52,531 nucleotides of DNA from Phormidesmis priestleyi ULC007 (GTDB lineage: Bacteria > Cyanobacteriota > Cyanobacteriia > Leptolyngbyales > Leptolyngbyaceae), in the NCBI RefSeq assembly GCF_001895925.1, contig NZ_MPPI01000034.1:1-52531 (forward strand). Direction: 5' to 3'. Positions 40,050 to 42,869 of the stretch are shown here, piece by piece. The notes beneath the pieces are model-generated. The model was given only the letters and a program-made list of their open reading frames with translations, was not told where the DNA came from and searched no databases. The position numbers and the translations under genes are program-made. Position 1 is the first letter of the stretch; each line of letters starts with the position of its first letter.

Positions 40050-40121
40050 GGGCGATTAGCTCAATGGTAGAGCGCCTGCCTTACAAGCAGGATGTTACTG
40101 GTTCGAGTCCAGTATTGCCCA
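40050..40121 (+). tRNA. tRNA-Val(UAC), target site of the CAST
   Basis: The cloverleaf has the acceptor stem GGGCGAT/ATTGCCC, anticodon stem CCTGC/GCAGG with loop CTTACAA (anticodon TAC) and T-arm ACTGG-TTCGAGT-CCAGT. Positions 40070-40086 match the 17-nt spacer at 40208-40224 (opposite strand) exactly and are preceded by GGTA, which fits the V-K PAM (GTN). Confidence 0.97.
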
Positions 40122-40125
40122 TAGA

Positions 40126-40207
40126 TGTAGTTCGTGTCAGGTAACACGCTATTTGTCGTCGAAGCTAAGAAAACTGACCGTTAACAGATTCTTGTCGTTA
40201 TGCGCCG
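40126..40207 (-). mobile_element. Type V-K CAST terminal end (cas12k/CRISPR-proximal side)
   Basis: The element begins TGTAGTTCG four bases after tRNA-Val, 56 bp from the first protospacer base. It has two spaced TTGTCGT motifs (40153-40159, 40192-40198) as expected for TnsB binding. The expected target duplication would be ATAGA (40121-40125) at the other end, which lies outside the window. Confidence 0.8.
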
Positions 40208-40242
40208 TTGTAAGGCAGGCGCTCCTTTCAATCCACCTTAAC
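40208..40242 (-). CRISPR. Stand-alone homing repeat-spacer targeting tRNA-Val
   Basis: On the minus strand a partial repeat GTTAAGGTGGATTGAAAG is followed by the spacer GAGCGCCTGCCTTACAA. All 17 spacer bases match tRNA-Val at 40070-40086. The repeat's GTTAAGGTGGATT is exactly complementary to the tracrRNA anti-repeat at 40840-40852. This is the delocalised guide known for homing of V-K CASTs. Confidence 0.92.
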
Positions 40243-40260
40243 TAGGATTTTAACGTACTA

Positions 40261-40293
40261 ATTCCGTACCAGTGAAAATGTTTGGTACGGAAT
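40261..40293. repeat. Hairpin between array region and homing unit
   Basis: ATTCCGTACCA and TGGTACGGAAT form a perfect 11-bp stem with an 11-nt loop, about 20 bp upstream of the homing repeat on the minus strand. It could separate transcription or processing of the homing guide from the array. The stretch 40294-40605 shows no gene. Confidence 0.7.
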
Positions 40294-40605
40294 GTTTGTT
40301 AATTGCAAATTCTTCTTCAAAGGCTAAGATGCAGTCGCACTCAATTAGGAAAACGACTGCATTGCTACACATTGAACCTGTTGCTTTATAAGCTTGGAGA
40401 AAGCTGTGAATCTAGTGGTCTGTCAGTCTTATTTTGAGGGGTAAATAGAATCCGTAGTTCTGGGCAGGAGACAGCTCTTGAGGAAATCTATCTCTCATTT
40501 CAGCCTTGACGGACTACTAGTAATTTTGAATTTATCTGCTGAAGAGTGAATCGCATCGGGGTTTGAGAGGATGTCATAAAGATGTTCTAAAGAGGTACAA
40601 GCTCT

Positions 40606-40709
40606 CTTTCAACCCGCCTCTCGCTGGAAAGGCGATCGCGACCCTAAGCGTTGAAACTCAGTCACAAAAAGCTTTTCAGCAGTACTTTTGGCAAACCTCT
40701 CTTTCAACC
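40606..40709 (-). CRISPR. Degenerate CAST CRISPR array
   Basis: Two sites end in the V-K repeat 3' motif: ..ATCAGGTTGAAAG (40709-40701) and ..GGCGGGTTGAAAG (40617-40606). The second is preceded by GTTTCAAC at 40657-40650, giving a 52-nt repeat-like unit instead of the usual ~36-37 nt, with a GCGATCGC inside. The spacers cannot be delimited with confidence. Confidence 0.55.
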
Positions 40710-40784
40710 TGATTTCTGGCTTTTCATCAGCCGTTTAAGGTTAGAAAACAACCTCCGAAAAGGAGCCTCAGAGCGAAATACAGC

Positions 40785-41045
40785 CTTTTGGCAAACCTCC
40801 TAGGAATTTTGCCCTTGCTTCGGTTTGCCAATTTGAACAGTTAAGGTGGATTCCTCCTTGCTCGGAGGTGAAGACGGTTAACCAACATTGCGGTAGACCC
40901 GCACCCTTTTGCTGGGAGCGCACCCAACTTCGAGGTAGATAGTTAACCAGAGCCAGAAAGCAAGATTATCTTCCGATAGCCAAACTAGCTCACAATTGTC
41001 GATAGCACAGAGACCATTGCTGGCATGAACTACGGCGCATCTGAT
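40785..41045 (-). ncRNA. CAST tracrRNA
   Basis: Downstream of cas12k the minus strand carries conserved V-K tracrRNA blocks: GCGCCGTAGTTCATGC, TTGCTTTCTGGCTCTGG, GGTGCGCTCCCAGCAA, AGGGTGCGGGTCTACCGC, CACCTCCGAGCAAGGAGG, the anti-repeat AATCCACCTTAAC, and a final hairpin TTGGCAAACC / GGTTTGCCAA (40788-40831). The order matches the known Scytonema-type molecule. Ends are approximate. Confidence 0.88.
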
Positions 41046-41080
41046 TTATAGAGTAAATTTGAACTGAGCGCAAGTGTTTT

Positions 41081-42869
41081 TTATTTTCGGGATTGATAGG
41101 CTGCGATCGCTAAATTTTTAGGCTTTTCTTGAGGAGTTCCTGTAAACGGTTGTTTTACTACCTCGATAGAAATCCCGACTTGGGCAGCTTGGCTTCCGAT
41201 ACATTGGCTGAGTTGAGCATGCCTCCAGCGATGTACGCTTGCTCGATACTGAAGGGCATATTGTCGTTGGAGTTCTATAGAACCGGGAATTTCTTGCTCT
41301 GCTCTAGCTTGAACTTCGCCTTGGACAATTTCTCGAATGTCGCTGAGGTCAGGCAATATGAGGCTGCTAACCTGATACTTTTGAGCGATCGCCACAATTT
41401 CATGAGCTATCAAACGGTCTAGATGTTTTCCTGAGTTGGATTCTCCAAACCGATTGAATGCGCCTTTTTGCTGGTTCTTGTGCCGCTGATGAGCGTTGCG
41501 TTGCTGTTGCAAACGATATCGATTGAGAAGCTTATAGTTTTCACCCAGAAGTTGTCGGATACTTCTGTATGTGATGGCTTTTCCAGTCTGAATATCGATA
41601 ATTGCGAGAGTAGCAGGTTTATCAAGCCCATAGCTTACACCTGCTAGAATTGACGGCTGACCTTGATAAAGAGGACGGCTTGGACGAGGAAATGGATTAT
41701 CAAGTAAAGCCAGCATTGTTTCCCGCCTTTTAAGAAATGCTTCCTGATCCTTACTCAAATTTTTCTTAACTTTATTACAAGCGATAATTTCTGCACACTC
41801 GCTAGCTTTTTTCTGCCGAATTTGTTCTGTACCTTCTTGAGCCCAAGAATCAGTGTCTATAGCGCAGGATACAACCAACCGATGGAGATTCCAGGGTTCG
41901 CCTTCGCCTCTACCCTCCTGCCAAGCCATCCGCCCAGAGCATAGAGTAAATAAGCTGGCTGAGTGTTGGTTTCTGCTAGCCTTCTTAGTTTGTTGTCTTC
42001 TAGAAATCGCTTGAACCAGTGGAGATAACCTAGTTGAGCCGCAACCGCAAGCGGTTCTGCTCACTGACGAAGAATGCAAATTCGGTTGTCGGCTCCAACG
42101 CTAGTTAGATCGTAGCGTCACGAAGATTTTAGCATACAGTACAAGTGAACTAAATGGCGCTGTCGGTCTAACTCTTTGATCACAGTAAATCTCAAACGAA
42201 TGCTCACCTAAGCCATTGAAGTTGACACATAATCTTCCTTTCTCATTCAGAAACCAGTGGAGATCTTCGTTTGTTTCGTAGTTGACTGGAAAAGGTAAAG
42301 TAGCTGGCTCTGTTAGCAATTTGGCTTGCCAATCGGCTGCTTCATTGTCATCTTTGGGAACACAACCTTCTGCCTTGGTTAAAGTTTCTAACCAAGTATG
42401 CTCAGACAAGTCTCGTCCTTTTGGAAACCTTGTACGCTCAAGAGTCTTGATTAGACGTTCAAGGCGGATTTCTGTTTTACGACGACGTTTGGCAAACTTT
42501 TTGGGGTCTTCAAATCGATCGGGCAGTTTGCAACCATTTTTGAGCAGGTAAGCGATCGCACATCGAGTCAAGACTTCCTCTGTCTCACCATAGAGTGTAA
42601 AGAGGGTGCTAGAAATAGCTGATCCTGGTTGTTTTGACTCTTTTTTACCTTTCTTTTTGCTGCGTGCCTTTTTAGGTTGTGGTTCGTTGTCCTGGGAATC
42701 TGAGTGATTTAGTTGCATGAGAAGTTCACTGGCTTTAGATCTCAGCGTGTTGATATCGCTCTGGCTAGCGATTGTTAACTCATCATCACTTTGGAGGATA
42801 GCCAACCATCGAGTTTGACCCGCAATCTGGTTTCTGAGTCGTGTTGCATTGGATGGTAATGTTGCTCAT
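41081..42869 (-). pseudogene. cas12k: cas12k, decayed
   Basis: The gene start is recognisable (MSNITIQC at 42869). About 90 codons are then missing before a frame resuming as LRNQIAGQTRWLAILQ. The middle (AIAYLLKNGCKL, KFAKRRRKTEIRLERL) is intact to YCDQR. A 143-bp attC-like insert follows, then YLHWFKRFLED, a one-base deletion, and QQTKKASRNQH to the normal end (AIAAYQSRK). Intact Cas12k is about 640 residues, is nuclease-dead and guides the transposase. This copy cannot make a full-length protein. Confidence 0.92.
42029..42171 (-). mobile_element. 143-bp integron-type cassette with attC site inside cas12k
   Basis: On the minus strand the insert begins TTAGAC after G (core G/TTRRRY) and ends in an attC-like site: ATCTAAC (42110-42104), GTTGGAGCCGAC, a variable hairpin with AACCG/CGGTT, GCGGCTCAAC, TAG and G/TTATCT. 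L'' and L' pair with an unpaired G, as in attC sites. There is no long ORF; TGTATGCTAAAAT could be a promoter -10. The flanks are cas12k coding sequence. Confidence 0.7.

Follow-up and report, generated by a model that had tools for sequence, protein, structure and literature searches.

The window analysed here, a stretch of 52,531 nucleotides (nt) that makes up the entire contig C42 of its genome (NZ_MPPI01000034.1), carries at positions 40050–42869 what is almost certainly the left-end half of a dead type V-K CRISPR (clustered regularly interspaced short palindromic repeats)-associated transposon (CAST) in a Phormidesmis-type cyanobacterium, inserted by RNA-guided homing. According to the proposed course of events, Cas12k, a trans-activating CRISPR RNA (tracrRNA) and a separate short guide, consisting of a truncated repeat (R*) and 17 nt, would have bound the tRNA-Val(UAC) gene at a GTA protospacer-adjacent motif (PAM), and a TnsB/TnsC/TniQ machinery would have inserted the ancestor about 56 nt downstream, leaving the tRNA gene whole and the element directly behind it. 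The element would later have died by deletion, frameshift and insertion in its effector gene; the assembly yielded no transposase genes. The parts as far as the cargo, the match between guide and target and the damage can be read directly in the window; the insertion event itself and the identity of a right half off the contig we infer.

Guide, target and left end

The following features define the attachment site and the transposon end:

40050–40121, plus strand: tRNA-Val(UAC), attachment-site gene (ARAGORN; Rfam tRNA, 75.9 bits)
40066–40069, plus strand: GGTA including the GTN PAM (GTA), by direct reading
40070–40086, plus strand: 17-nt anchor protospacer, exactly identical to the guide
40121–40125, plus strand: ATAGA, candidate left copy of the target-site duplication, by position only (right side off the contig)
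40126–40207, no strand assigned: transposon left end with the tip TGTA at 40126 and TGTCA/TGTCGTC motifs, from spacing and motifs
40208–40224, minus strand: 17-nt anchor (homing) spacer, an exact match; the guide also occurs in G028:C37 and G003:C19
40225–40243, minus strand: truncated repeat R* AGTTAAGGTGGATTGAAAG, preceding the 17-nt guide on the minus strand

The guide sequence GAGCGCCTGCCTTACAA is present once on the plus strand (40070–40086) and once on the minus strand (40208–40224), the two copies being 100% complementary. This agrees with the original prediction, which had described a 17-nt spacer beside a partial repeat as an exact match to tRNA-Val(UAC) with GGTA upstream, and had placed the transposon end 56 bp from the start of the protospacer. 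The TGTA tip does lie 56 nt past the protospacer start and PAM, within the PAM-to-left-end range of 46–82 nt published for V-K CASTs (PMC9938897). In addition, 14 nt of R* form a perfect complement to 40839–40852 in the tracrRNA region.

As a control for chance, the 2-kb flank was resampled 1300 times at first order and scored by match length and not by PAM, repeat or spacing; the longest word shared with the tRNA measured 7–14 nt in 1299/1300 cases and 17 nt in 1/1300. The 17-nt match alone is rare, yet possible by chance, and it is the repeat, the PAM and the spacing that carry the case. In the same-genus genome G001, the 1.5 kb following the tRNA-Val gene contain no element.

The same guide logic in other CAST loci

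The original prediction had also held that known V-K CASTs home to tRNA genes with delocalised guides, which is in line both with the published "anchor spacer" layout of R* plus 17 nt by the left end (PMC9938897, reviewed in PMC11406308) and with the loci compared here. Among the named Cas12k loci, which are the best 80 of 90 confirmed, 60 carry a 17-nt guide unit with at most two mismatches (37 with none), and GT is present in the PAM in 60/60. The window's own genome holds two further remnants, each with its own repeat-plus-17-nt unit: C8 (L014, 3428–6486) beside tRNA-Thr(GGT) with one mismatch and C52 (L016, 11153–12073) beside tRNA-Val(CAC) with two. Their cas12k copies are damaged too, that of C8 being in two frames and that of C52 a fragment. 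The exact guide of the window was found beside tRNA-Val(UAC) in G028:C37, where the upstream flank is shared as well (72% over 265 nt), and in the CAST of G003:C19 (L028, 4172). The latter contig (48,912 bases) showed no tRNA at 1–19999, at 22500–42000 or around cas12k, and an array spacer may have directed the insertion of its CAST.

For many elements, insertion at a tRNA gene goes along with a partial duplication of that gene, and the 17-nt match lies just 121 nt from the tRNA copy. It could be taken for a piece of the tRNA left behind when an element inserted by way of an integrase, through duplication of the attachment (att) site, rather than for a guide. We give this explanation hardly any credence: the match is inverted and preceded by a truncated CRISPR repeat with pairing to the tracrRNA region, and in other CASTs each repeat-plus-17-nt unit matches its own neighbouring site. 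The CAST of G003:C19, moreover, has the same unit without a tRNA in the contig stretches read, which refutes an att duplication if the assembly is correct.

The window element is an additional example of the anchor-spacer layout and ordinary for its family. As far as ShCAST and AnCAST are described in PMC9938897 and PMC11406308, it shares with these type V-K CASTs Cas12k, the tracrRNA, the CRISPR repeat, the GTN PAM, R* with a 17-nt anchor spacer, a left end behind a tRNA gene and a small divergent gene upstream of cas12k. It differs from them in being dead, with one full repeat left, in its target tRNA-Val(UAC), in a divergent gene of another type and in a cas12k with an insertion.

CRISPR repeats and tracrRNA

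40606–40642, minus strand: the one full CRISPR repeat (37 nt) that remains, its type shared with the eight repeats of L075
40785–41045, minus strand: tracrRNA with its anti-repeat at 40839–40852, from alignment and compensatory pairs

The CRISPR array in the window is reduced to this full repeat and a degenerate second one that ends at 40701. A V-K tracrRNA had been proposed at 40785–41045, and homology to other CASTs upholds it: the interval can be aligned with the stretch immediately following cas12k in 11 further CAST rows (two of them identical) at a mean column identity of 83%, and a compensatory change was seen in 10/54 pairs of a structure predicted on the same alignment. The expected agreement with covariance models did not follow, as the Rfam scan returned no tracrRNA match and no V-K tracrRNA family came up in Rfam at all; the homology to the tracrRNA of other CASTs fills this gap. 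Weak Rfam matches to U4 and NsiR4 fell below the gathering score and were discarded. The order of tracrRNA and cas12k is as predicted, according to this alignment and to the NF038191 matches given below. A search with 40122–43300 in distant mode had no match in the plasmid collection. For 40126–41045, no further copy turned up in the window's own genome or among the plasmids, although no search aimed at genomes without cas12k was made.

Decay of the effector gene and probable absence of the transposition genes

41081–42869, minus strand: cas12k pseudogene with its start codon at 42869 (NF038191 pieces; alignment to the P. priestleyi copy)
42027–42172, minus strand: 146-bp insertion, probable geneless integron cassette (repeat copies, linkage to intI, attC-like ends and fold)

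The profile NF038191 scores above its cut-off in two minus-strand pieces of cas12k (420 and 258 bits), and the start codon coincides with the end of the interval first delimited. The gene bears three lesions. After the first eight residues, which are kept, around 90 codons (about residues 9–96) are gone and the frame is altered; near 41996 it is one base short of the P. priestleyi copy, which results in a frameshift; and the 146-bp insertion interrupts it. Relatives hold stop-free Cas12k frames that span the entire profile.

Searches of the whole genome found nothing with the TniQ profile PF06527 (which had no genome-level positive control and is exceeded by the TniQ of G028 by only 6 bits), nothing with PF09299 (Mu-transpos_C; in its positive control five of six genomes gave matches, all but this one) and no match to the TnsB protein of G028 (a query run without positive control). 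Likewise, tnsC was not found in the fetched stretches, the only DNA searched for it. Since the assembly (118 contigs) is 99% complete, the absence of a CAST transposase from the genome is likely, though not certain. Together with the damage to cas12k, these results bear out the description of the locus as a relic.

Some observations count against our reading of the locus as a dead CAST inserted by homing. The window element, whose contig stops at 52531, showed neither tnsB, tnsC or tniQ nor a right end, and the probable next piece, contig C85 (5.4 kb), holds no tns genes. Furthermore, 20/80 named Cas12k loci lack a guide as defined above (19 have none and one has a candidate with three mismatches only); there are less than 1.3 kb past cas12k in 12 of these loci and 1.8–6 kb in 8.

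With an intact left end, R*, guide and target, and with 14 nt of R* pairing to the tracrRNA region, the element might be non-autonomous yet mobile, its ends and guide being served in trans by another CAST. This is improbable in our view, as the two other cas12k copies of the genome, on C8 and C52, are broken as well, TnsB and TniQ were not found in it and no right end of the element was seen.

A probable integron cassette within cas12k

Elsewhere in the genome, the 146-bp unit recurs eight times at 91–100% identity. Two integron integrase genes were identified, at C58:2180–3118 and C38:7026–7961, with TIGR02249 scores of 458 and 428 bits against a cut-off of 265 (the loose search matched all 14 controls, none of them above the cut-off), and each of these contigs carries both intI and a copy of the unit. 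On C38, the copy ends a row of small genes running from intI and stands right behind another attC-like site. The unit starts with GTTAGAC and includes ATCTAAC followed by an imperfect palindrome; these ends agree with the integron core sites GTTRRRY/RYYYAAC (PMC3518468). Compared with the uninterrupted P. priestleyi copy, the insertion follows the G of GAT, and no bases are duplicated. Integron integrases are described to recombine rarely at secondary sites of the form GNT (PMC3518468). Two T at the far end of the insertion are present in some other copies and absent in others. The flanks of seven other copies resemble cassette borders by eye, with further reading at C38 and C58.

With some reserve, these features suggest that an integron cassette without a gene probably landed in the CAST effector gene. 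As a dispersed repeat, the unit could also be an ordinary miniature inverted-repeat transposable element, which we consider rather unlikely: terminal inverted repeats are absent by eye, the insertion caused no duplication, the copies on C38 and C58 share a contig with an integron integrase, and the ends fit the published core sites. The entries L162 and L163 are listed together with this probable cassette.

Mosaic structure and possible exchange of left ends and guides

We compared the element with the CAST of Phormidesmis priestleyi BC1401 (L071, NZ_LXYR01000025.1), to which it is about 92% identical over the 3' half of cas12k, the tracrRNA and the first repeats. In steps of 100 aligned bases, with the insertion excluded, identity is 56–71% over 42872–42273, which is the N-terminal part of cas12k, rises to 86–97% over 42272–40625, and is 44–56% from 40625 down to the guide, which delimits a block of about 1.5 kb with sharp edges on both sides. 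L071 targets tRNA-Pro(CGG) with another guide, and its left end is unrelated to that of the window. For the N-terminal part of cas12k, the nearest of ten relatives compared is L076 (78%), while L071 reaches 70%. Judged by these identities, the window element is a mosaic.

A wider comparison comprised 54 locus pairs with a body at least 85% identical over at least 1300 nt; these pairs are not independent. Where the guides are at most four bases apart, coverage of the shorter left end by a single alignment reaches 0.95 or more in 14/18 pairs, the exceptions being L090/L139, L090/L111, L103/L119 and L103/L149. With guides at least seven bases apart, such coverage is reached in 0/36 pairs (maximum 0.81), partial left-end similarity being common in this group. 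Left end and guide thus tend to change together, which suggests that they may often be swapped as one module and that attachment sites may be switched by its exchange. V-K elements have been described to use their attachment sites more dynamically, "for unknown reasons", in ways that can differ between close relatives (PMC11406308).

A divergent helix-turn-helix type gene upstream of cas12k

The element extends past the interval first delimited, through a regulator-type gene and cargo, to the contig end at 52531.

43033–43284, plus strand: gene of a small helix-turn-helix (HTH)-type protein, divergent from cas12k and C-terminally truncated (83 versus about 107–110 amino acids, aa), by family comparison
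43013–43027, no strand assigned: palindrome TTGTCGCTATGACAA, candidate operator, a perfect TTGTCN5GACAA

Three regulator types have been described upstream of cas12k in reverse orientation, namely CvkR (MerR, 139–185 aa), Arc_1 and Arc_2, the last two being ribbon-helix-helix proteins of 53–72 aa (PMC9938897). The HTH-type gene shares with them, as they are described there, its small size and its divergent position directly upstream of cas12k. In contrast to CvkR, the family measures about 107–110 aa, has its own palindrome and was not matched by phmmer from a MerR-type CAST protein; judged by the published descriptions of Arc_1 and Arc_2, it appears to differ from them in the length of its members and in an all-helical model without strands. 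A literature search, with supplements outside its scope, found no type of cas12k regulator beyond these three, and the HTH type may be noted elsewhere.

The family may represent a fourth type of V-K CAST regulator, a protein that would bind TTGTCN5GACAA in the region separating its gene from cas12k and repress both itself and cas12k, and we hold the chances for and against this proposal to be evenly balanced. We go no higher because 10/22 strong profile matches are the profile's own rows and because 13 of the 19 rows counted for the palindrome are those in which it was first recognised.

Of the 101 rows taken, 95 have at least 150 nt upstream of cas12k, and an HTH homolog divergent from cas12k occurs in 13/95, with L035 added separately; for L071 and five more, the upstream DNA is too short to judge. 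The HTH set includes the window, L073, L074, L022, L024, L026–L030, L032, L035, L076, L186, L190, L191 and L194. A match in L101 (E 0.48) was dismissed as chance. CvkR-like open reading frames, detected by phmmer from the L089 seed (MerR_1, 56 bits), were present in 53 loci, none of them in the HTH set, and no MerR domain was found in the window protein or the two relatives tested. Two pairs of entries are duplicates: L041 and G001C97 are one locus, and L074 and L192 one contig.

Searched over 115 genomes, the HTH profile gave 22 strong places (> 130 bits), 19 of which are next to and divergent from cas12k, as established for 13 by comparing positions (G008 with about 0.9 kb between) and for 6 by tblastn. 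Ten of the 22 are rows of the profile, chosen for their position; of the other 12, cas12k adjoins 9. Weaker matches (≤ 52 bits) represent a wider group of similar proteins. Strong relatives in G006, G033 and G063 have neither cas12k nor tracrRNA in the 9–10 kb fetched nor an adjacent palindrome, and count against a strict CAST specificity of the family. Three close HTH-type relatives without cas12k nearby are L187, L188 and L189.

With at most one mismatch and within 600 nt upstream of cas12k, TTGTCN5GACAA was present in 17/19 rows of the HTH set, two of which are one contig, versus 1/81 other rows, among which one locus stands twice and one is mis-sorted, and in 42/1900 shuffles. Of five fresh contigs (L035, L186, L190, L191, L194), four have the palindrome. 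The two misses among the 19 rows are L190 and G028:C37; in the latter, the half-sites are 4 nt apart. In a quick tree of 76 Cas12k proteins, the HTH label appears in at least four deep clades, and its six label changes are inflated by unreadable or mis-sorted loci; in the tree and in the palindrome count, L045 figures among the others despite an HTH gene at the true cas12k start. Being present in at least four deep Cas12k lineages, the gene may have been gained or swapped several times.

Control of tnsB, as exerted by CvkR, is disfavoured because the palindrome was not found in the 400 nt upstream of the two tnsB genes inspected, in G003:C19 and G021:C25 (best with two and three mismatches, respectively). 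The tnsB upstream regions L157 4003–4405 and L160 4939–5341 share, by eye, a stretch with TGGTACTTTTTTACCA, a candidate control site.

The predicted structure (predicted local distance difference test score, pLDDT, 70) consists entirely of helices in HTH order; a first model with a pLDDT of 56 was not used. Structural matches are weak, the best having a Z of about 5 over 53–69 residues, mostly to HTH proteins, and the Foldseek E values are not significant. A comparison of the HTH profile (A6) with PDB sequences gave only a terminase (E 0.29), and the HTH proteins matched no Pfam family above cut-off and none in PHROGs.

Cargo and contig end

43398–43712, minus strand: small cargo gene with 85% identity, over 92 aa, to a gene of the C8 CAST
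43725–44039, minus strand: HNH nuclease-like cargo gene (PF01844, 38 bits), 88% identical to a gene of the C8 CAST
45022–48183, plus strand: drmD of a defence island system associated with restriction-modification (DISARM), apparent cargo (NF038317, 1371 bits; PADLOC)
49585–52334, plus strand: DISARM drmMI, broken, apparent cargo (PADLOC)

The remainder of drmMI is probably located on contig C85, although no overlap between C85 and the window end was seen. DISARM is absent from the main text of a cargo survey (PMC8649781). An attempt to reach the right flank from the sequence that follows the element-free tRNA-Val gene of G001 led to matches on C62 and C90, which are unlinked to the window element and were rejected.

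Significance

The locus is a clean dead example of its family and illustrates decay, with the transposase not found, a deletion and an apparent integron cassette in the effector gene. The parts worth following up are the regulator family and the module exchange. The latter, if true, would be a way in which V-K CASTs switch attachment sites; as to the former, a new regulator type and its candidate operator, if true, could govern a group of CASTs that are of interest for inserting DNA.

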